Assembly: GCA_003990745.1 (NCBI GenBank)
Contig: RBNI01007432.1
Span: 1-10,318 of the forward strand
Source: Jimgerdemannia flammicorona
Lineage: Eukaryota > Mucoromycota > Endogonomycetes > Endogonales > Endogonaceae
Direction of reading: 5' to 3'
DNA length: 10,318 nt
Shown here: piece after piece, positions 1 to 10,318 of the stretch
How the letters are laid out: each line of letters opens with the position of its first letter
Position numbering within the stretch: position 1 is the first letter of the stretch
Made by a program: the position numbers and the translations under genes
Notes under the pieces: generated by a model
What the model saw: only the letters and a program-made list of their open reading frames with translations
Told to the model about the DNA's origin: nothing
Databases searched by the model: none

Positions 1-380
1 AGTCTCTGGCAGATAGTATTGAGTTGATCCTTGAGAGCTTGCTTGATCTCTTCGGTATAATATGTTGTTCTGAGGAAGTCCTTCATGTTGTCAAGTTTAA
101 CTGCATCAGCACCAGCAATGGTGGCTGCATTAAACTTGTCTCTGGCAGATCCTCTGAGGCTGACTGGTAGAAGGGCCAATTGAGCATCCACACCAAGGGC
201 TCGTATGGCGGCGAATTGTTCAAAGTCTTCAATGAAGGTCAGGATTGACTCTTCAGTAGTATATCCATAGAATGTAGGGGGACGCATTTCCATCTTGTCT
301 TGAATTCTTGCAGGGGTGACTCTTATAGTTAGGGTAGTTATTGTGGGGGTTGTTCGTTTTTCAGCTTGAAAGTGAGGGAT
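1..380 (-). CDS. gag: Partial Ty3/Gypsy Gag of element X, open to the left edge
   Basis: The minus strand reads open from 380 to the window edge. It contains the Gag-like stretches RPPTFYGYTTEESILTFIED and LPVSLRGSARDKF, typical of the capsid region of Ty3/Gypsy elements, where Gag packages the element RNA into particles. An in-frame TGA lies at 383-381. The first in-frame ATG codons are at 293 and 287. Another ATG at 384-382, just after the presumed primer-binding site, is in a different frame and soon meets a stop, so the true N-terminus may have been lost to a frameshift. About 127 codons are visible without a stop, much cleaner than the neighbouring elements, so X may be the youngest LTR element here. 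Seen: the open frame and motifs. Inferred: the family assignment. Confidence 0.75.
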   Translation of the reverse strand, partial: MPHFQAEKRTTPTITTLTIRVTPARIQDKMEMRPPTFYGYTTEESILTFIEDFEQFAAIRALGVDAQLALLPVSLRGSARDKFNAATIAGADAVKLDNMKDFLRTTYYTEEIKQALKDQLNTICQR

Positions 381-392
381 TCATCTTGAATC

Positions 393-410
393 ACCAGCCA
401 ATGGGCACCA
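393..410 (-). other. Candidate primer-binding site of element X
   Basis: Minus-strand sequence TGGTGCCCATTGGCTGGT begins 8 nt after the LTR terminus TACA. Primer-binding sites start with TGG, the complement of the tRNA CCA end, and lie just downstream of the 5' LTR, so position and first bases fit. I cannot name the tRNA. An 8-nt spacer is somewhat long. Confidence 0.45.
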
Positions 411-619
411 AGTTGTCATGTAGTGATCACTGAGTCCTTCAAATATGCCAGATTCTCTTCAAGGTATATCTCTTAGACTAACTCAAGTTGTTATAAACAA
501 GTTCTTATTGGAGTGCCTTCCCAAGGTCTTATAGTCCTCAAACTTCTTATCTTTAACTGCCTTGTTATCTCTTAGATTGCATGCAAGGAAGTGTGTGTAT
601 TACACTGAGAGGAACTGAC

Positions 620-625
620 TTTATT
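620..625 (-). terminator. AATAAA polyadenylation signal in LTR X
   Basis: AATAAA on the minus strand, about 20 bp after the TATAAATA box of the LTR, where the R region would lie. It is near the TATA box, so it may serve mainly at the 3' LTR. The call is by motif and position. Confidence 0.4.
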
Positions 626-644
626 TCAGAGGAAATAAGAGAGG

Positions 645-652
645 TATTTATA
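645..652 (-). promoter_or_regulatory. Core promoter (TATAAATA) of LTR X
   Basis: Minus strand TATAAATACCTCTC, about 230 bp before the LTR end and gag. The equivalent site in LTR Y (3739-3732) reads TATAAATACCCTCTC, so the two families share this core. It probably drives the genomic RNA of element X. Confidence 0.55.
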
Positions 653-725
653 CAAAATATAATTCAATAATTGCTAAGATATAAAGCTAAATATAAATTC
701 CAATAACTAAAATTACTAAGTTCCA

Positions 726-865
726 AGGCTGGCATTATTTGGTATCACAACAAAATGCCGGTGCTGGCATTATCCAGTGTTACATGAGAATACTGGTGCT
801 GGAACAATTTCGCATCACCTCAGAATACCAGTGCTGGCATTATCCAGTGTAACAAAGAACTTAGA
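726..865 (-). repeat. Degenerate 35-bp tandem repeat in LTR X, four units
   Basis: Units start at 726, 761, 796 and 831 with exact 35-bp spacing. Each begins with a form of GTGCTGG. The 20 bp GTGCTGGCATTATCCAGTGT occur identically at 761-780 and 831-850, while units 1 and 3 share a different tail (ATTTGGTATCAC versus ATTTCGCATCAC). The array lies between the ORF X stop and the LTR core promoter, the usual place for U3 enhancer repeats. Confidence 0.75.
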
Positions 866-1709
866 GCAGAAAGTTCAGGACTAGGGGGGCTTCATCATTA
901 TCATCATTATCACTGAAGGAGATAAGATCCACGAATTCATCATGCAGGTCACGCATTTCGCGTACTTTGGGTATGTCGCACGTCTCGCGTATGTCGAAGT
1001 CACGTGGGATGATGTCATCGATGACGTCATCACGTTCGACTGTGGCGGGAAAATCAGGAACAAGATCTGGAGCTCTCCAGTCTATGAGGTTCTCTTCTAC
1101 AAAATAGGGGACAAATGTGAGGTCTTAGGGGGATCTAACCCGGATGCTTGGGCCTTGGAATACTGAGATCAATCCTTGCAGGAATTGGTCTGGGTTGTCC
1201 TGAAGGATGGGGTACCAGAAGTCTTCTACTTCTTCGCTGTTGAGGGTGATAGTGGACTGGGCTTCTGTGGCCACCCTGGCTTCTAGTGCATTGATATGGC
1301 AGGATGACAGGTCTCTGAAATCTGAGACTCTAACATACTCCAAGTTGGGGATCAACTATGGTGCATGCCTGAAGATCTGATGGATCTTCTTAGCTATCCT
1401 CGTTTCGCGTATGTCCATGGAGGTGGCATCTTGTAGCTCTTGGGTGCTGGCCTGTGGGAACTCCTGGCAGAGGAGGTTTCCTATTTCATACTCCTGCCAC
1501 ATTTGGAGGCATTCGGTAGCAATGGTGATCCTTGTTTCCATTTCATGGCAGTAGAGAATAAAGTGATAGGGGTCTGCAGTACCCAGGTTGATACTAGGAG
1601 TCCTTCTTGAGCGGGTCCTCATGGCTCTTCTGATGTCTTGGAACATCCTTTCTTTAACCGAGGTACCTTGGTGATTCCTTGACCTTGAGGTTTGGCAGGC
1701 AGCGGGCAT
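861..1709 (-). pseudogene. ORF X: unknown 282-aa protein inside LTR X, two in-frame stops
   Basis: A single minus-strand frame runs from ATG 1709 to TAA 863-861 with no frameshift, broken only by TAG (1358-1356) and TAA (1127-1125). I recognise no family. Visible features: a basic N-terminus (residues 1-40, many Arg), a probable helical segment with several Cys (YCHEMETRITIATECLQMWQ, about 53-72), and an acidic C-terminus with RDDVIDDII (226-234) and FSDNDDEAP. The motif DIRET occurs twice, in SMDIRETRIAKK and DFDIRETCDIPK. No membrane segment or signal peptide is evident. It has its own TATA box 87 bp upstream and an A/C-rich leader. It lies wholly within U3 of the LTR on the gag strand, so an intact element would carry two copies. 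Weak similarity to ORF Y is described in the findings. A captured host gene is the alternative. Confidence 0.6.
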
Positions 1710-1788
1710 TTTGTTTGTAGTAAGTCTTTGAGCTATTTTGGGATTGGTAGTTCTTGTTGATTGCTGCTACTGCGGTTCCTTGGTCCTT

Positions 1789-1796
1789 CTTTTATA
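1789..1796 (-). promoter_or_regulatory. TATA box upstream of ORF X
   Basis: Minus strand TATAAAAG, 87 bp before the ORF X ATG. The leader between them is rich in A and C (CAGCAATCAACAAGAAC; ACTACAAACAAA just before ATG), as in fungal 5' leaders. This suggests a second promoter in the LTR, separate from the genomic-RNA promoter at 652. Confidence 0.45.
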
Positions 1797-1952
1797 TTCT
1801 TTAGGATGCTTGTGCTGTGGTCACAATGACTCATGGTTGGTCATCATTGCTCATCTTGTATGCCATATGATCTTCTTGTGCTCCGATCTGGTGGCTTTGC
1901 AAGGAAAGGCTGTCTCCTGTGCTGATGTCATCATTCTGGGGTCACTGTTACA

Positions 1953-2541
1953 ATACTCATATGTATAAATCAGAGACTAGGAAGTCTTCAAGAGAGCTCT
2001 TTACAAACAGTTCAAGTCTACTAATGCTACCAAACTAGCCAGAGACAAGTTAGCAAACATCAAGCAACTCAAGTCTATATAAAGCTATAATACATAATTC
2101 TTATCAATCCTACTTGAGCTACCAGTAATATCTAAGGATAAAAAGATAGACCACTATGTCTAAGGCCTGAAGGGAAATACATGAGTCAAGGTTGAGCTAA
2201 AGGAGTCCAAAAACCTTGATGAAGCTATGAGAATTGCCAATAGGTTCAATATTATTACCTTTGGTAACCACTTTGAACCAGAACACCACAAGAAGAACCA
2301 CTTTGAGAACTGTCACAAGAACCAACCAAAGATAGTTGGCCCAGTACTAATAGACCTAGACACTATGAACAAAAAGAACACCAAGCTTACTTCTGAAGAA
2401 AAGGACTGCCTGAAGAAATCTGGAGCCTGTTTCTTCTATCACCAAACAGGATACATTGTAACCAAATATCTCAAATCTTTAATACCAGTCACCATATTGT
2501 CCAAGGACACATCTGTCAACTCCACCACTAGTCAACTTGAG
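1953..2541 (+). pseudogene. gag: Decayed Gypsy Gag: capsid part and ruined zinc knuckle
   Basis: Frame 1 (codons starting at 1954, 1957 and so on) reads a classic Ty3/Gypsy Gag: VFKRALYKQFKSTNATKLAR, then LANIKQLKSI, FLSILLELPVISKDKKIDHY, and LDEAMRIANRFNIITFGNH. Gag forms the particle and binds RNA. Stops fall at 1966, 1978, 2080, 2095, 2161 and 2182; most are explained by CAA to TAA, CGA to TGA or TGG to TAG. The C-terminal zinc knuckle (CX2CX4HX4C) begins at Cys 2428, but the next three ligands are all Tyr (codons 2437, 2452, 2467). The N-terminal capsid part is missing, cut by LTR X. The frame continues into the dUTPase. Confidence 0.85.
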
Positions 2542-2965
2542 CTCAAGATTAAGAAGCTTCATCTGAGGGCCCAGATCCCTCAATATTAAACAGAAGGAGT
2601 CATTGGTCTTGATTTACACTTAGTCAAATAAGTCACTATTTCAGCTAAGGACTGAACTCTGGTGTCTACTGGAATTGCAGTTTAATGTTCTGAAGGACAT
2701 TATGTCAGAATTATATTGCAATCAGGACTTAGTATCAAACATTATATAGATACATATAGATACTGGTATCATTGATCTAGACTTTTGAGGACAAGTTCAA
2801 GTTCTACTTATCAATCAGAAGGATCAAGACTACACAGTCAAGAAAGGAGATCAAGTCATGCAAATGATTCTAGAAAAAGCCAGTTAACTTAAGATTATAG
2901 AAGTCCAAGAACTCTCTGAGACTAAATGAGATCAAAAAGATTTTGGCAGTACTGATCAAGCAGCA
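2542..2965 (+). pseudogene. dUTPase domain between nucleocapsid and protease of the Gypsy polyprotein
   Basis: dUTPase hydrolyses dUTP to dUMP and pyrophosphate and so limits uracil in cDNA. All five motifs of the trimeric family are visible. Motif 1 is GLDLH (2605-2619). VSTGIAV (2662-2682) follows, as is usual. Motif 2 is QSGLSIKHYID (2719-2751). Motif 3 is GIIDLDF (2765-2785), with the catalytic-type Asp at 2774. Motif 4 is VKKGDQVMQMILEKA (2837-2881). Motif 5 is DFGSTD (2939-2956). Stops lie at 2587, 2629, 2653, 2683, 2786, 2885 and 2927. The frame changes from 1 to 2 at a 10-bp tandem duplication (2744-2763). It was fused in frame to Gag before and protease after. The order nucleocapsid, dUTPase, protease is that of betaretroviruses such as MMTV. 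Confidence 0.88.
2744..2763 (+). repeat. 10-bp tandem duplication that frameshifts the dUTPase
   Basis: ATATAGATAC occurs twice in direct tandem (2744-2753 and 2754-2763). The reading frame is 1 before it and 2 after it, and the 10-bp gain accounts for the change exactly: HYIDT on one side continues as DTGIIDLDF on the other. Confidence 0.85.
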
Positions 2966-3239
2966 AGTCTTAGTGAAAATTAAGCTCAAGCTATGCTTAT
3001 TTTAAAAGGCCTAGTCAAAGGAAAAGAAGTTCAAGTACTCATAGACAGCAGAGCTACAGGGAACTTCATCAATCAGAATCTCATCAAAAGCCTTAAGATC
3101 CTTACTAAGTCTGCACCCAAGAACAATAGTATAGTTACTGCAGATAGTACTCTGTACCCCATTGAGTCAATTGCCACCAAACTACCCATTAAGATCCAGA
3201 AATATTGGGAATGAGTAGACTTTAAGGTTGCACTACTAG
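2966..3239 (+). pseudogene. Aspartic protease (retropepsin) remnant, active-site Gly lost
   Basis: Frame 2 continues from the dUTPase through one stop (TAA after LSEN) into MLILKGLVKGKEVQVLIDS, the start of a Gypsy-type retropepsin that would cleave the polyprotein. The active-site triad D-T/S-G followed by A-T reads D-S-R-A-T here: Asp 3044-3046, Ser 3047-3049, and Arg (AGA, 3050-3052) where Gly (GGA) is expected, a single G to A change. FINQNLIKSL follows, as usual in the family. After a TGA at about 3212 the frame reads VDFKVALL and stops at 3239, where LTR Y begins. The rest of the protease and all of reverse transcriptase are missing from this window. Confidence 0.85.
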
Positions 3240-3598
3240 TGTAAGAGGGTTGCTTTTTAGAGTAACCATTACATAGTTCTGAAAGGGTTTTCTAGAAGTT
3301 CTGGATATTCTAGAAGACCATTTTCTTATAGTCAAGATCAATTTCGTATGGAGTATGTCCTCTATGCTTATTGATTTCAAGATCGGGTTGACGTCTCAAC
3401 CAAAGTCCTTTCTTTGGACTAGTTCTGGATGTTCAGGATTTTCCATATTTCAGGAAGTTCGAGAAACTAAGACCAGCTTAGTTGAATTGGTGTATCGCTG
3501 CAGACAATACCCAATTAGGAAATTTCGTAATGGGGTTAGGAGTGGGACCTAACAGGGAGCAGATTTACTTAAGAGTGGTTTGTGGGTTATTAAATAGA

Positions 3599-3604
3599 TT
3601 TATT
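3599..3604 (-). terminator. AATAAA polyadenylation signal in LTR Y
   Basis: Minus strand AATAAA, about 130 bp after the LTR Y TATAAATA box. By position it would end Y transcripts in the 3' LTR. The call is by motif and context only. Confidence 0.45.
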
Positions 3605-3731
3605 CACTATTCATGATATTACTATACTAGGAGTAGTTGTGTGAGGGGATATTGTGAAGAAGTGCTCAGGAGTTGTGTTCGGATTGTTCAGATCTGTTCA
3701 AGTCTGAGATTCTGAGGTCTGGGGGAGAGGG

Positions 3732-3739
3732 TATTTATA
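3732..3739 (-). promoter_or_regulatory. Core promoter (TATAAATA) of LTR Y
   Basis: Minus strand TATAAATACCCTCTCCCC, nearly the same as the LTR X promoter (TATAAATACCTCTC). It lies about 190 bp after the ORF Y stop and about 490 bp before the LTR end. Confidence 0.55.
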
Positions 3740-3792
3740 CTAATGAGGGGCTATCTGGACTATGCTAAATATGGGTGTAGCACTAAGTGCTT

Positions 3793-3915
3793 TGCTGAGT
3801 CGGAATGCAGTCATATAGTACAAGTGTGATCTGATATATCAAGAGATCGTCTGACTGCTGAGTCAGTTCACAGTCATGTTGTACAAGGCTAATCTAACTA
3901 TACTATGACTGCTAA
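3793..3915 (-). repeat. Degenerate tandem repeat in LTR Y, about 63-bp period
   Basis: Plus-strand TGCTGAGTC starts at 3793 and 3856. The two copies share CAGTCAT, GTACAAG and ATCT at the same offsets. A third partial copy (GACTGCTAAC) starts near 3908. It sits between the ORF Y stop and the LTR promoter, the same place as the 35-bp array in LTR X. Confidence 0.6.
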
Positions 3916-3928
3916 CCTATTTATGGTT

Positions 3929-5026
3929 TTAGGCACTGTCTGGATAGTCTTCGATGATATCACCATCAATTGCTTTATCTCTGATGAAGTAGTTGTCTAG
4001 GAAAAGTGGTTCGCAGATTACTTCTCCTTATTCGCTAAGGTAGTAATACATTGGAACTTCATCTCTGTTCCACAGGATAGCATCGTCTGTCTCATATGCT
4101 GGATAAGGTATTGGTGGGCAAAGAAGTAGTGCATCGTTTTCACTTTCATTGGATTCACTGTCTGCATACCTTCTATAGGTTACAGCACTATGAGTCATAG
4201 GGTTGTAGTAAGCTAGCGGCTGTGGTTCATGTTGCTCATACTTGGGTGGTGGAGTAGTTGGTTCGACTTCAATGGTTGTCTGAAGGTATAGGTTGTATTC
4301 TCCAGTCTCTTCATTGTAGTTAAAGTAATTGGGGGTGAATGCAGGTTGGTATTCGTGCCAGTGGTCATTGTCTCAATAAGTCTTGTATGTGGTTATGAAC
4401 TGTTGTAAGTTCATCAGCAAGGTTGGCAGTGTGATCAGGGTTGGTAGAGATCCTTGGCTTGAGGTCATGTCAGCATCAGAGAGATCGTTGTCTTCTGCTT
4501 CATCTTCATCAAATCAGATTATATCATAGACATCCTTCATAGCATATCTGACTTGGAGCATTTACAGGATATGGTCATCAGGGTGCGGGAAGGTTCTGTC
4601 AGTAGTCTGAACATATTTAAGATACTTGTGGTTGAGTTCTTGTATCATGTCATCAATTTGGCCATAAAACAGGGTAGCAACCATTTTGCTGGTAGTAACT
4701 CAGAGATGGGGAATAAAGGTGCTGTACTCGTAGAAGAGTTCTTGGTATTTGTGGGCAATGAGCTTCTGGTGTTGAGATATCTGGGTAATGTCTGTATCAT
4801 GGTGGTGTTCGACCATGTCTTCCAGGAGGTGGCTGATCTGGTAGTAGCTTGAGATTTGTCCAATTTGGTGGGCCTCATTAAGCATATTCAGGGCATTCCA
4901 TCAGGCTTCCACAAAGTAGAGTGGTGCTAGACTATGGATATTTATGAGGGGCAGAGGGGGTGTGGCTTGGTTGACAATGGCATTCCAAATGTCAGCGCGG
5001 ATGCAGTTGTAGATCTCGGTGGTCAT
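3929..5026 (-). pseudogene. ORF Y: unknown 365-aa protein inside LTR Y, six in-frame stops
   Basis: One minus-strand frame runs from ATG 5026 to TAA 3931-3929 without a frameshift. Stops at 4903 (TGA), 4702 (TGA), 4564 (TAA), 4516 (TGA), 4375 (TGA) and 4030 (TAA) all fit single transitions in CGA, TGG or CAA. I recognise no family. Residues 1-200 look helical, for example YYQISHLLEDMVEHHHDTD. A middle stretch is acidic (FDEDEAEDNDLSDAD). The C-terminal third is rich in Pro, Tyr and acidic residues, with TTPPPKYEQHEPQPLAYYNP holding a PPxY motif (PPKY, residues 260-263, bases 4249-4238). It ends RDKAIDGDIIEDYPDSA. No membrane segment is evident. A TATA-like box lies 72 bp upstream, with a CAA-rich leader. 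The preserved frame shows that it once encoded a protein. Confidence 0.68.
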
Positions 5027-5092
5027 GTTTGTGTGTTTTGAAGTTGTGGTTGTTGTTTGTTTGGTTCTCATTTGATGCATCTTGGGGCTCAG

Positions 5093-5098
5093 TATATA
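5093..5098 (-). promoter_or_regulatory. TATA-like box upstream of ORF Y
   Basis: Minus strand GCATATATACTGAG, 72 bp before the ORF Y ATG. The leader is rich in C and A (ACAAACAACAACCACAAC and ACACACAAAC just before ATG). This mirrors the spacing and leader of ORF X. Confidence 0.4.
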
Positions 5099-5178
5099 TG
5101 CATCTGTTCTTGATTGGTAAGATTCCGTTTATATGAATCTTGTGTTCTGTGACTTCGTATTGACTCAGCTTCATGATC

Positions 5179-5265
5179 TTGCAGGTGATTTCCAGATTTG
5201 TTTAGAGATTGCATGTGATTTCAGTGGCTTATTCAGAGGGTGACGTGTGATTTCTGTGGCTTGGA
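5179..5265 (-). repeat. Three degenerate 30-32 bp repeats in U3 of LTR Y
   Basis: Plus strand GCAGGTGATTTC (5181), GCATGTGATTTC (5211) and ACGTGTGATTTC (5243) share the core GTGATTTC. The last two also continue with CAGTGGCTT and TGTGGCTT. They lie upstream of the ORF Y TATA box and could act in its control. Confidence 0.6.
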
Positions 5266-5281
5266 GGTTGTGCACTTACAA

Positions 5282-5294
5282 CTCTCCCCTTCTT
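5282..5294 (-). other. Polypurine tract of element Y
   Basis: Minus strand AAGAAGGGGAGAG, 13 purines, then one T, then the LTR start TGTAAG at 5280. The polypurine tract primes plus-strand cDNA synthesis and marks the 3' LTR boundary. This is the best evidence that LTR Y starts here, and hence that ORF Y lies inside the LTR. Confidence 0.75.
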
Positions 5295-5708: not shown

Positions 5709-6657
5709 TTAGTTGTTCAAGGAATCGTATTCCTGAACTAAATTGGTAGCATTCTGGAGATTGGTCTTGGGTTCCTATGTTGCATCATGGATTGGATAAC
5801 CTTTCCAAAAAAAAAAAAAAAAAAAAAAAAAGATAACCTTTCCATTTAGTGAGATACTCAGGGTGGTTCTTGTGACCACATCTGTTGAGGATTTGTTCAA
5901 CTTCATATTCTTCCTGGTCATTAATAATGATGGGTACAGGTGGTTTTGTAGTACAGTTCGGGAATAGTTCATTGTCATTGTCATTGTATTGCTTGAGACA
6001 TTGGACATTGAAGACTGGATGAATCTTAATAGTGTCTGGTAGCACCAATTTATAGGAGGTTGAAGAGACTTGTGAAATGACTTCAAATGGTCTAATGAAC
6101 TTGCTGTTCAGCTTTATAGATGGTCTGTGCTTGAGGTTGTCAACTCGGTACCCTTGGATGTCTAATAGAACTTTTTCTCCAATATCGAAGGTTTCTTCTT
6201 GGTGATGTTGGTTAACATACTGTGACTGTTGTTCTTGAGCTCGCGATAAATTGTCAATTGCGATCTGGCTTAGATTACGTATTTGGAGTAAGAATTCTTC
6301 AACAGCTTCAACTATAGAGGGTTCTTCAGTGGTTCGGATGAGTGTCAGAAGAGTGTTTGGGTTTTGTCCAGTGTTGGTGAAGAATGGGGTCATTCTGAGA
6401 GAGGCTTGCTTGCTGTTGTTATAGGCAAACTTGACTGCAGTAAGATGTTTATGCCAATCATCTTGTCTGTAGAAAACATAGTTTCTTAGCATTTGTTCCA
6501 GAGTTCGATTCATTCTTTCAGTTTGGCCATCAGTTTCAGGGTGAAAAGCTGTAAACAGTACAAGTTTTGTTCCAAGGTGCACATAGAGGGCTTTCCAAAA
6601 ATGGCTGGTAAATTTCGGGTCTCAGTCACTAACAATGATCTTAGAGAGACCATGATA
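5709..6657 (-). pseudogene. pol: Pol C-terminus of element Y: integrase, GPY/F module, chromodomain
   Basis: The minus strand reads YHGLSKIIVSD, then a TGA (6624-6622) in place of Arg, then DPKF. The second catalytic Asp of the DDE triad is at 6627-6625. HPETDGQTERMNRTLEQ follows, with the catalytic Glu at 6519-6517. Next comes a GPY/F-type module (KLNSKFIRPFEVISQV and IHPVFNVQCLKQY), then a chromodomain (YEVEQILNR, HPEYLTKWKGYP, EPKTNLQNATNLVQEYDSL) ending at TAA 5711-5709. Chromodomains direct Gypsy chromoviruses to marked chromatin. A 37-bp insertion (25 A plus one 12-bp repeat) breaks the frame inside TKWKGYP, and the conserved Trp codon after IHDAT is TAG (5777-5775). The N-terminal integrase part and everything upstream are lost at the LINE junction. 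Confidence 0.9.
5795..5843 (+). mobile_element. Poly(A) insertion with perfect 12-bp target-site duplication
   Basis: GATAACCTTTCC occurs at 5795-5806 and again at 5832-5843, separated by exactly 25 A (5807-5831) and nothing else. Removing one copy and the A tract restores the chromodomain frame. Target duplication plus poly(A) is the hallmark of target-primed reverse transcription by LINE enzymes, here with the body cut away entirely. The A tract has the same orientation as the LINE about 0.9 kb to the right. Confidence 0.85.
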
Positions 6658-6740
6658 GTCACCTTTCACCTGTACCATTTGGGTGACACAAGTTTCTGAC
6701 AACACCTACAGCAACATCGTCAAGTATTGGTGCTTTCAAG

Positions 6741-8627
6741 ATGGCGAGCAATATGCATTCTGGTGAGCGTACTGGGCAGGGCGGCCTCAGTGCCTTCGAC
6801 TGGCAACATGTGGGGGGGGGTCGGAGTGCTGGTCTTGGCATGCCGAGCACTTTGGTGAGAGGACGTGGGGCTGGAGGGGGTGGCAGAGGCGGGGCAAGGC
6901 CACATGGGGGTGGGAGGATGACCTTCGCGGATAAGGTCAGGATGGGGAAGCAGGCGACAGAACTGGATGGCTGGCTGGAGCTGGGGAAGGCGGCTGCTAC
7001 CTCGAGTGGCAAGAAGGCCTCTCCACTGGGGGGACAGTATAGTGGGGCTGGAGGAGTAGTGGCTGAGGCTGTGACTGTTGATGGCGGTGTGACGGGCAAT
7101 CTGGAAAAAAATCCAGATGTGATGGCTGATGGGGGACCTGGACAGGGGAGGGGCGCAGGGTCTGGGGATCTGGCTAATGGTGTGACGGGCCTTGTGGTGG
7201 CCCCGTTACTCAAGAAATCCCGTTCGGAATTCACCATCATATTGTGCTTCTGAGGCTTAGCGGTGATGGCGAAGATGGTGCTGGGGCTGTTGGCAAGCGA
7301 GGTGAAGGGTGCAGCCTTGGTTAAGTTTTTGAAGAAGCTGGAAGCAGTCGAGGTGGGGTTTGAAGAGGAAGATTTGCTACTGGAGGCAGTGGAGAAGGAT
7401 GTGGTAGTTGGAGGGATTTCAGTGCCAATGGCGAGGTATATGCACTGGGATCCCCGGGTGGTTCATCTGGTGATTGCGGACTTGCCAACTGTAAAGAAGG
7501 AGAAGGTGAGGAGGCTGGTCACCGATGTGGTGAAGGAGTACAGCGAAGTGGTCAATATTGGATTCAGGGTGTGGGAGGGGACTGAGCTCAGGACAGGAGA
7601 TGTGGATATCCAGTTGAGGTTGTTTGGGATGGAGAATACTGGGAAGGCTAGGGACTGGCTGGTGGTATTGAAGTGGGGCCCGGTGGAGTGCAAGGTCTCG
7701 AGGGTGAAGGGGTCTGAGGAAGAGGAGGAGGACTTACTGGAGGCGCTTGAGGACTTGGCTGGAGCTGTTGAGAGGCAGCAAAGAGCTTGGAGGGCTTATG
7801 AGGCTAGGATGGTTGTGGAGGTGATTGAGGGCAAGAAGATGCAGATGGACAAGGTGCTCTGGGAGAAGGTGAAGGGGAGGCAGCTGCAGAAGGAGTTGTT
7901 GGCCAGTTTGGATGGGGGCCACAGGACAAGGGGTGTGGAGGAGGGCATGGGCGCGAGTGCTAGCATCTGGGTGGAGGGGGGGCAGCAAGAGGAGAAGACG
8001 AAAGAGAGTGGGGGATGGGGGCCAGAGGAGGCTGGAGTAGATGTGGCAATGGTGGAAGATCCTCCGATCCAGTATGGTGTTCCCGAGATGGGGGAGGGAG
8101 AGCTGGAGGATGTGTCTGAGGATGGGTGGGATGAGTCGGTGCGAACTAAGAAGAGGAAGGAAGGTGAGGTAGATCTGGAGCAGGTGGTAGAGGTAGTTGG
8201 AGGGGAGAAGTGGCTATTGAGGGCATTGCAGAATGTGGTGGCTGAGGAACTGGGCGAGATCGATTTCCAGGTGATCAGTGAGGAATTCTGGGGGTGAGTG
8301 CTGCGTGGGGAGGAGGTTGTGAGGAAGTTGAGAGATGAGATGATGGCAGCTCTTCTGGAGGCAGAGGAGTATGAGGTCACTGAGGCAAGGGAGGCGACAC
8401 TCTTGGGAATAGCTAATGAAAGGGCAGCCTATCTGTGGGGGCCAAGGAAGGGATTGGAGAAGTGGCAGGTGGTTTGCGAGGAACATCGGGCAGCGATGGA
8501 GATGGTGGATAGTGAGGACTGTGCAGAACTACTGGTGGCTCTGGATGAACAGCAACATGTAGAAGAAGAGATTGTGGCAGAATGGAACCTGGATCTGGCT
8601 GGAGAGGAAGTGAGCATGGAACTGTAG
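6741..8627 (+). pseudogene. LINE ORF1: RGG-box nucleic-acid-binding protein, two in-frame stops
   Basis: One frame of 628 codons from ATG 6741 to TAG 8625-8627, with TGA at 7251-7253 and 8295-8297. ORF1 proteins bind LINE RNA and form the ribonucleoprotein. Residues 40-59 are an RG/RGG-rich box (RGRGAGGGGRGGARPHGGGR), followed by MTFADKVR, a short motif resembling LINE ORF1 N-termini. Residues about 239-295 (VVHLVIADLP, then a basic helix, then DVDIQLRLF) could be an RRM-like or DUF4283-like fold; this is a guess from the strand-helix-strand pattern. Residues about 325-390 are highly charged and probably coiled coil (SEEEEEDLLEALEDL). A basic patch RTKKRKEGE near residue 470 may be a nuclear signal. 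No CCHC zinc knuckle is visible. The N-terminal 50 residues hold a run of nine G bases (6812-6820), a possible frameshift spot. Confidence 0.75.
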
Positions 8628-8661
8628 ATGCGGAGATTTCAGCATTATCAAATATTTCACT

Positions 8662-10318
8662 ATGAATAGTACAACCAACATTTTTTCTCTGAATGTCAAT
8701 GGGCTTAGAGGGACTGGGAGGTGGCGTATGATTTTTGGATGGCTGAAGAAGCTGGAGGTGGATCTCTTCTTGCTTCAAGATATATGGTGTGAGGGGGAGG
8801 AAGATGGACTGGAATGGACAAGAGAGTGGGGGGGGGCAGTGGTTTGGCAGGATAAAGTGGGGATCCTGGTTAGGAAGTGGAGAGGGGACATTGTGGACAC
8901 TGGACATTGGGGTAGCAGATTAGTGTGGGGGACATGGCAGAGGTCTGGATAGAACTCAATTGTGGTGGGATCATGTTACTGCCCAGCTGAGAGAGGGACC
9001 CAAGTGGAGTGGATTGGAGATCTGCGGGATTCTGGGATCTTGGCTGAGGCTAGAGTGGATTGCTTGGGGGGTAACTTTAATATGATACAGGAGAGTCGGT
9101 TGGACCGGACTGATGGGGGACAGGGTGTGGCAGGACGGAGTGGGGGACTGGAGGACTGGGAAGAGGTGGAGAGACTCAGCTCACTGGTGGATGCTATGAG
9201 ACTTCAGGATGAAGACCGGCATCTTTATACTCACTGGGTGGGAGGACTTGGTACTAGGATTGATTGGGTTCTGACTGCTGAGTATTGGGGCAATGCAGTT
9301 TGGGAGATGATGGAGGTCAAGTGGTGCCCTTGGTCAGACCACTGGGGGATTCGGGGTGGTGGGAGGTTTGGAGGGAGCAGAGAGGGGCCAGGACATTGGC
9401 GGCTGAACTCTTCACTGATGGATGAGATGGACCTGTGGAATGTGTAGGTGATAGTGGTGTGGTCCAAGATAAATGATTGGAGGTGAGCAGGGATGAGGAT
9501 TGGAGATAGGTGGCATCAACTGAAATCCAAAGCTCAGAGATACTGGAGGGAGGTGGGGAAGGAGCGGAGTGCTCAGCATAGGCGACGAGTCCGATGGGTG
9601 TCAAGGAGACTTGAGAGGCTACTGCTGAATTGGGCTGAATTACTGGGGGAGGAGGAGATATTGGATTGGAAAGCCAGGCAGGCTAGGCTGGAAGTGGTGG
9701 AACTGCAGGATTTGTTGAGGAAGGAGGAAGCAGTACAAGCTCAGGCTATGGCAGCCAGACTACGGTGGCAGGGAATGGAGGAAGGTGAATGGCCTACAAG
9801 GTTTTTGTCCCGGCTCCTCCGTGCTAGGAGAGCTAGGCACTAGTGGGAGAGAGTTCTTAATGATGAGGGAGAGATGGTATTAGGTATGCAGGGAATCCTT
9901 GGCCAGTTGAGTGCTCGCTGGAGTAATCTCTGGAGTGAAGAGGAAGGAGGGGAGGTGGGGCAAGACATTAAGTGGCATCTCGAAGGGTAGCACCCAAACC
10001 CTGCAGCAGGGTTGGGGGAGCTTGGTAACCCGGTTTTGGGAGAGGAGATCCTTCGAGTTCTGGCATCAACAACCCTGGGAACGGCGCCTGGGGAGGATGG
10101 TCTGTCTTGGGACTTTTGGAAATGTATGGCATCTGTAGAGGAGGTTCTGGAGGAGATGATGCTGATGTGTGATGCCATCATCAGTACCGGGAATGGATTG
10201 GAGGGCAGCAGTTGGGGCTGGTATCACTGCTGTATAAGGACAAAGGGCATAAGGAGGACTGGAAGAATTGGAGGCCAATTATGCTGCTGGATATGGACTG
10301 CAAGCTGGTCACCAAAAT
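8662..10318 (+). pseudogene. LINE ORF2: endonuclease plus start of reverse transcriptase, broken
   Basis: The frame from ATG 8662 has stops at 8950 (TAG), 9445 (TAG), 9484 (TGA), 9841 (TAG) and 9988 (TAG), then a frame change near 10190. Endonuclease motifs: FSLNVNGLRG (8683-8712) and VDLFLLQD, where the usual LQET Glu is Asp. GGNFN follows, with AAC 9073-9075 where catalytic Asp is expected. Then TRIDWVL, and WSDHW with the catalytic Asp-His at 9337-9342. A linker rich in Arg, Trp and Glu follows. Reverse transcriptase starts with GTAPGEDGLSWDFWK (10081 on); after the frame change it reads LGLVSLLYKDKGHKEDWKNW and RPIMLLDMDCKLVTK, then leaves the window. The enzyme would nick the target and copy LINE RNA there. 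The YADD catalytic box is not in the window. Confidence 0.9.

Follow-up and report, generated by a model that had tools for sequence, protein, structure and literature searches.

Two Ty3/Gypsy families of Jimgerdemannia flammicorona whose long terminal repeats probably carry an accessory gene inside U3

The 10,318 nucleotides of contig RBNI01007432.1 from the fungus Jimgerdemannia flammicorona, called the window here, contain long terminal repeats (LTRs) of two Ty3/Gypsy families, X and Y, and each of these LTRs probably carries a true accessory gene that lies wholly inside its U3 region. Both stretches are LTRs, the region of the open reading frame (ORF) is present in both LTRs of full-length elements, the frame is open in many copies, and its codons have been under constraint. 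An earlier note, made from the letters of the window, had proposed two families built on one plan; this idea has been strengthened, the two elements belonging to different lineages and their LTR proteins showing no detectable kinship.

The window is an entire contig (C7432) of an assembly of 134.8 Mb in 7754 contigs, which was searched for further copies. With positions 419-1952 as query, 48 X matches were obtained among the 40 best of 3174 candidates; for Y, the 40 best of 3871 candidates yielded 50 matches. Scoring was limited to the top candidates of each genome search; copy counts are thus lower bounds and skewed towards well-preserved copies. Loci were classed as 5'-type, 3'-type or solo from flanks of at most 600 bp, and the conservation of boxes was judged in 12 displayed copies per family, the window copy included.

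LTRs X and Y and their reading frames

At least 30 copies of LTR X are present in the genome, where they are seen before a primer-binding site (PBS) and gag, after a polypurine tract (PPT), and as solo LTRs flanked by target-site duplications (TSDs). Besides the window copy, 29 X matches among those listed each span at least 1411 of 1534 bases. Among 30 loci, 6 share a gag-side flank starting with TGACAACTTGGT or a close form of it and running on into gag, and 16 have an upstream flank in common that ends in TCAGGAGGAAGA or a near variant. The identity of X as an LTR and its minus-strand orientation, as proposed earlier for 419-1952, were upheld, and its delimitation by a PBS (starting ACTTGGTGCCC) and gag recurs in other copies; the outer end had to be moved to 414, because taking TGACA (TGATA in some copies) as the terminal five bases yields matching 4-bp TSDs in two full-length elements (ATAT in C4392, CTAT in C84) and in four solo copies (GTAT in L003, ATAT in L005 and in L020, ATGC in L021). 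Both C4392 and C84 contain two X LTRs in the same orientation, 93.2% and 92.6% identical, respectively, with their ORFs about 7.25 kb apart. The ORF X region is present in all four of these LTRs, the longest open pieces being 188 and 264 codons in one pair and 284 and 255 codons in the other.

LTR Y is likewise represented by at least 30 copies, found before PBS and gag, after the PPT, and solo with TSDs. The PPT side, GAAGGGGAGAGT or near, is shared by 12 of 30 loci and the primer-site side, ACTTGGTAGCAG or near, by 13 of 30, and identical 5-bp TSDs were flagged at three of them. On three contigs (C251, C2201 and C1221), a pair of equally oriented Y LTRs is found at a distance of about 8.6 kb, and each LTR of these pairs can be aligned over almost the whole 2041 bases; the element of C251 has ATATT at both outer sides and Y protein matches in both LTRs. 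Recurrent copies, flanks and paired LTRs thus bear out the LTR at 3240-5280 on the minus strand, and its start is marked, as the earlier note had it, by a PPT that stands in the same or a nearly identical form before 3'-type copies. In both families, the ORF is therefore found inside both LTRs of full-length elements, two for X and three for Y. The full-length Y element of C251 is itself flanked by Y LTR pieces in the opposite orientation (6844-7223 and 17897-18241) that overlap by five query bases (1661-1665), an arrangement which, by its layout, is a Y element inserted into another Y LTR.

Table 1. Features of the window and their conservation in other copies
Feature	Position	Strand	Remarks
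Start of X gag, runs out of the window	3..293	-	common to 5'-type copies
PBS of X (ACTTGGTGCCCA)	402..413	-	directly after LTR end; also in L061
LTR X, 5' LTR of an element extending leftward past the window edge	414..1952	-	1539 bp, TGT...ACA; end set by 4-bp TSDs and PBS
TATAAATACC box of X, presumed genomic-RNA promoter	643..652	-	exact in 10 of 12 displayed copies; L011 and L012 one base off
Imperfect tandem repeats (35-bp units) separating ORF X from the genomic promoter	728..854	-	also in L015 and L028
ORF X in U3	861..1709	-	282 codons, counted across two in-frame stops; intact in other copies at 278-286 codons
TATA-like box before ORF X (TATAAAA)	1790..1796	-	in 11 of 12 displayed copies; TACAAAA in L005
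LTR Y, 3' LTR	3240..5280	-	2041 bp in the window; many copies have about 2074 bp
TATAAATACC box of Y, presumed genomic-RNA promoter	3730..3739	-	identical in 12 of 12 displayed copies
Two diverged 40-nt repeats after ORF Y	3793..3895	-	75% identical, 63 bp apart
ORF Y in U3	3929..5026	-	365 codons, interrupted by six in-frame stops in the window; other copies have it open
TATA-like box before ORF Y (TATATA)	5093..5098	-	in 11 of 12 displayed copies
PPT of Y (GAAGGGGAGAGT)	5281..5292	-	same or near variant precedes 3'-type copies
Y integrase C-terminus and start of chromodomain	5785..6582	-	SH3_Tf2-1 E 1.3e-15; Chromo below cut-off here

In X as well as in Y the complete ORF lies inside the LTR (Table 1). 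The lengths of 282 and 365 codons given for the ORFs at the outset hold approximately in other copies, while in the window they span stop codons. Among the first 30 loci of each family, an open frame of 278-286 codons was found in nine X copies, and one of 365 codons in two Y copies, with a further Y copy reaching 332. No internal stop occurs in 57 of 136 scored X matches and in 26 of 112 scored Y matches; these are hand counts among the best-scoring matches and concern stops within the match, start codons and frameshifts being outside this criterion. The ORFs thus stay open in many copies, and with so many scored matches they behave, in the genome searched here, as repeats rather than as single-copy host genes; other eukaryotic genomes may still hold a host relative.

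The TATA-like box before each ORF and the TATAAATACC box after it were confirmed in the displayed copies. Counted from the LTR start, the TATA-like box, the ATG and TATAAATACC lie at 156, 244 and 1301 in X, and at 183 (TATATA), 255 and 1542 in the window copy of Y. AATAAA starts 27 nt past the start of TATAAATACC in X, at the presumed start of R, and 135 nt past it in Y. As to the tandem repeats suggested to follow each stop codon, X has them as 35-bp units (3.6 copies in the window, 4.1-4.3 in L015 and L028), whereas in Y the diverged pair forms no clear array.

Selection on the reading frames

Pooled pairwise dN/dS in the ORF frame amounts to 0.40 in X (34 copies) and 0.25 in Y (30 copies), in both families less than in any of the other five frames. 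As values of 0.39 to 1.79 are seen in those, a context-matched test was used, in which variants are taken relative to one natural copy and the same changes are placed randomly on matching sites in simulations. The values given below are ratios of nonsynonymous to synonymous changes (N/S) relative to that expectation, with the number of simulations giving a value as low in brackets. With all variants included, X shows 1.05 for private variants, 0.45 for those in two to three copies (0/400) and 0.47 for those in at least half of the copies (15/400); the corresponding Y values are 0.61 (1/400), 0.79 (44/400) and 0.36 (0/400), and Y variants in at least four copies give 0.54 (0/400).

About half of all ORF variants are CpG- or CpA/TpG-type transitions (188 of 359 in X, 292 of 526 in Y), which is plausibly what would be expected of DNA that is methylated or mutated in a manner resembling repeat-induced point mutation (RIP). 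A filtered test drops these transitions, which leaves 171 of the 359 variants in X and 234 of the 526 in Y. Private X variants then are neutral (1.02), while those in at least two copies give 0.43 (0/1000) and those in at least four 0.36 (2/1000); for Y, the values are 0.42 (0/1000) and 0.22 (0/1000). In the other two frames, the filtered shared variants reach 1.61-3.28 of the expected N/S, those in at least two copies 1.69-2.05. Differences fall on codon positions 1, 2 and 3 in proportions of 0.338, 0.236 and 0.426 in X and of 0.335, 0.161 and 0.504 in Y. The integrase served as calibration: its shared variants give 0.55 in X (15 of 18 copies usable; 32/500) and 0.11 in Y (12 copies; 0/500), its private variants 1.28 and 0.68. 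In the non-coding LTR end, used as control, shared variants yield 0.76, 1.68 and 1.03 in the three frames for X, and 1.05, 1.23 and 0.91 for Y. Differences within X LTR pairs, which arose after insertion, show N:S counts of 35:19 and 43:24, near the expected 1.9:1. The dN/dS-type check proposed at the start has thus come out in favour of the ORFs, N/S among shared variants being below expectation in the ORF frame of both families, and we read the pattern as constraint acting on the protein in those lineages that transposed, with free decay afterwards.

LTR proteins, rival explanations and known systems

In nine X copies and two Y copies with open frames, the terminal fifth of the protein is strongly acidic (charge -10 to -20 in X, -16 and -19 in Y) and the final 60 residues include 18-25 bulky hydrophobic ones, while the first fifth is charged +3 to +6 in X and -3 and -4 in Y. 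The strongest hydrophobic 19-residue window in these copies scores 1.32, and the sequences suggest soluble proteins, for which no membrane segment would be expected. Pfam gave, for four proteins, best matches under the cut-off (ATG5_HBR, DUF5545, HepT-like), and no match was found in NCBIfam and PHROGs for one protein per family. Against PDB, the Y protein of L043 and the X profile A3 had no match, and the X protein of L015 a single one at chance level (aminoaldehyde dehydrogenase, E 0.28).

Relatives do exist. A search of 5.8 billion proteins returned eight, all nameless or 'hypothetical' and without Pfam domains: six relatives of X (E up to 1e-3), a seventh through a wider profile, and one of Y. 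They lie on contigs 778-1625 bases long, obtained from JGI or ENA, and are 56-85% identical to X and 65% to Y. When the genome of J. flammicorona was searched with the distant relative P0005, older and heavily decayed relatives of X were found besides X itself. Four of these (L065-L068, on C2849, C602, C913 and C1094) share 44-49% identity with X over their main stretch and contain 6 to 11 stops in the aligned parts; L066 and L067 align without gaps over 212 and 215 residues at 47-48% identity, L065 shows a frame change and one gap, and L068 four gaps. In C602 and C913, the ORF is preceded by a TATAAAA box (ATATAAAAGAAG) and followed by TATAAATA(C/T)CC, both in corresponding positions, so that the plan of box, ORF and box is probably older than X itself. 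The two contigs begin to resemble each other about 210 bp ahead of the first box and remain similar up to about 42 bp beyond the point where the second starts; two shorter similar stretches follow. Their LTR ends could not be fixed.

Several other origins and features were considered and set aside. Pattern matches to X and Y in viral contigs, and to X in prokaryotic genome contigs, were in no case upheld by tblastn. Profile comparison gave a probability of 1.3% for a common origin of the two LTR proteins, and homology is accordingly not claimed; with both profiles shallow, it may nevertheless exist. The idea of PPxY late domains in Y, based on two motifs in L043 and L045 (residues 260 and 270), was dropped, as they are absent from the relative P0007.

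A number of observations weigh against a functional gene in these LTRs and should be kept in mind. Both window ORFs are dead, that of X through one TAG and one TAA and that of Y through six stops before the final one. The 35-bp repeats of X are conserved no better than the remaining LTR, and their role as binding sites, lacking this extra conservation, is no more than a suggestion; TATA-like strings are common in the AT-rich pieces of C602 and C913 (nine and four matches). With all variants included, X variants in at least four copies show little constraint (0.83; 57/400), and in the non-coding control the private X variants are low in one frame (0.49; 18/500). Y private variants are already constrained in the filtered test (0.60; 4/1000), and the Y LTR pair of C251 shows an N:S of 35:31, under the expected ratio of about 1.9:1. 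Stop-making changes are undepleted among filtered variants in at least two copies (X 1 against 1.2 expected, Y 6 against 3.0), and among all variants in at least four copies they number 3 against 6.3 in X and 13 against 15.1 in Y; the sole class showing their absence is that of Y variants in at least half of the copies (none against 3.0). Copies with a broken gene may consequently have been passed on, and the undepleted stops may fit a gene that is needed in trans and not in every copy, or a blur caused by LTR pairs and recurrent change.

The dead ORFs of the window, the undepleted stops and the internal stops in most of the best-scoring copies (79 of 136 X and 86 of 112 Y, by the same hand counts) could also be taken to mean that the ORFs are chance or passively carried frames of captured sequence without protein function, in LTRs that just grew long. 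We consider this very unlikely: amino-acid changes are depleted among shared variants in a frame-specific manner in both families, as they are in the integrase, relatives of intermediate identity align almost without gaps, further relatives appear in the protein search, and broken copies are to be expected under neutral decay after insertion. That regulatory DNA or RNA, such as an enhancer or a packaging signal, causes the constraint would suit U3, the usual home of regulatory sequence, but the constraint tracks codon positions and the other two frames trend in the opposite direction, which makes such an explanation hardly tenable. If, on the other hand, the gene is real, its product could antagonise the host, through RNA interference or DNA methylation, instead of acting on the LTR promoter. 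The share of CpG- and CpA/TpG-type variants makes methylation or RIP-like pressure plausible and an uncharacterised soluble protein would fit this role; given that none of the three family collections holds a match, we regard an antagonist as rather unlikely. An accessory of the genomic RNA, acting in nuclear export or packaging, would agree with the location of the gene at the 3' end of that RNA and with the basic first fifth of X, yet the start of Y is not basic in the two copies, and this function appears improbable.

Our own, tentative proposal is that the product is a soluble regulator acting in trans on its own LTR, as an activator or anti-silencer. It is based on the acidic tails with bulky hydrophobic residues in both proteins, on the basic start of X, and on the end of the gene beside repeats that precede the genomic promoter. 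Whatever the function, the conserved boxes suggest that the gene would be transcribed from a separate promoter where U3 begins; it lies in sense orientation directly upstream of the presumed genomic-RNA promoter, and its transcript would end at the poly(A) site of the LTR itself. The genomic RNA would carry the gene at its 3' end as well, so that each retrotransposition would produce two copies and every solo LTR would represent a one-gene unit. Such an arrangement may have originated by an upstream shift of the PPT past a former ORF behind pol, bringing the whole gene inside U3.

Complete genes inside LTRs are, to our knowledge, mainly a matter of vertebrate retroviruses. Lentiviral nef and the accessory frames of foamy viruses at the 3' end reach partly into U3; they resemble X and Y as 3' accessory frames overlapping U3, and differ from them in that the gene and TATA-like box of X and Y lie wholly within it. 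Tas of foamy viruses is expressed from an internal promoter and acts as an activator of its own LTR; with transactivators of this type and of that of Tax of human T-lymphotropic virus, X and Y might be compared by acidic tail and position. The Rem protein of mouse mammary tumour virus (MMTV) is an accessory of genomic RNA. The Sag protein of MMTV is a membrane glycoprotein acting on T cells, and its gene offers the closest parallel, with a whole accessory ORF inside a long LTR. Homology of the X and Y proteins to Sag was not found, as they have no hydrophobic segment, no Pfam family above the cut-off and no credible PDB match, and hosts and element lineages differ too. According to the passages at hand, sag makes the MMTV LTR exceptionally long, about 1.3 kb (PMC3026287), and CERV of the element Cer1 is reported to be a genomic-RNA accessory acting in nuclear export or packaging (PMC10309623). 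Additional ORFs of plant LTR retrotransposons likewise add a gene beside gag-pol; neither 'within the LTR' nor 'in the LTR' occurs in the main text of a paper on them (PMC7264820). For fungal elements, a figure legend mentions an 'additional ORF with unknown function', and the passages seen of that source place no ORF inside an LTR (PMC2864245). Among titles and beginnings of abstracts in the open-access literature, no LTR-encoded gene of a fungal element was found, subscription literature lying mostly outside this scope. Judging from passages, the leads PMC12139950, PMC12037069, PMC4016481, PMC11117352, PMC8282616, PMC4715297 and PMC10974842 had no bearing on the subject.

Two unrelated LTR genes in different Gypsy lineages of one genome suggest that accessory genes can be housed in U3, the consequences being that they would double at each insertion, survive in solo LTRs and act in trans. 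Going further, the LTR might be regarded as a gene cassette, into which at least two Gypsy lineages, perhaps independently, have put unrelated genes that are under selection and probably encode regulators, each with a promoter of its own and wholly inside U3; we would rate this wider idea somewhat short of an even chance. Were it true, each solo LTR would stay a trans-acting gene, hundreds of dispersed, promoter-equipped regulator copies could act on all their relatives, and this trans action would explain how copies whose gene is broken could spread. Such genes would be overlooked by annotation in which LTRs count as non-coding, and the control of LTR retrotransposons by their own proteins becomes a directly testable question.

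Element interiors and the remainder of the window

The features of Ty3/Gypsy elements are present in both families: paired direct LTRs with TSDs (4 bp in X, 5 bp in Y), a PBS after the 5' LTR, a PPT before the 3' LTR, and the order gag, protease, reverse transcriptase (RT) and integrase, pieced together from several copies, with the integrase beside the 3' LTR. The interior of X encodes a gag with a zinc knuckle, found in the longer open frame of copy L022, a protease fragment, a dUTPase (E 3.9e-26), RT and an H2C2/rve integrase. The interior of Y encodes a dUTPase (E 2.5e-30), protease, RT, an SH3 domain of Tf2-1 type and a chromodomain (PF00385, E 2.7e-17 in copy L039); its rve match of 26.0 bits is under the cut-off of 32.6, and its gag frame has no Pfam match. 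The chromodomain behind the integrase, which characterises chromoviruses, is thus seen in Y and not in X, where the 381-residue integrase frame of L015 gave no chromodomain match in a scan that excluded about 316 nt between frame and LTR. Judged by make-up and order of their domains, X and Y are different Ty3/Gypsy lineages, and the elements look fungal by the likeness of the Tf2-1-type SH3 and the dUTPase.

Gypsy elements bearing a dUTPase are described from Postia placenta (PosPlaTy3), Phanerochaete chrysosporium and Tuber melanosporum, and in the passages available its position is variable, including that between protease and RT (PMC2864245), which X shares. In Y, the dUTPase precedes the protease, and this difference between the two families (L069 249-1364 and L070 279-707) suggests that it was captured separately by X and Y.

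The window as a whole looks like a nest of transposable elements, with X at the left, Y in the middle and an element resembling a long interspersed nuclear element (LINE) at the right end. Within the chromodomain region of Y, a pure run of 25 A (5807-5831) is flanked by a 12-bp duplication, GATAACCTTTCC (5795-5843), and looks like a retroposon insertion of which only the poly(A) tail is left. The LINE-like element, on the plus strand at about 6700-10318, is strongly G-rich on its coding strand and seems to have interrupted the integrase of Y; four pieces of it tested against Pfam gave no match, and NIFSLNVNGLRG near 8662 is what we take to be its endonuclease-like start. Between the two LTRs, the plus strand of 1953-3239 holds a decayed stretch resembling gag and protease, possibly of a third Gypsy-type family; its piece 2227-2589 had no Pfam match, and both X and Y appear to be inserted into it.

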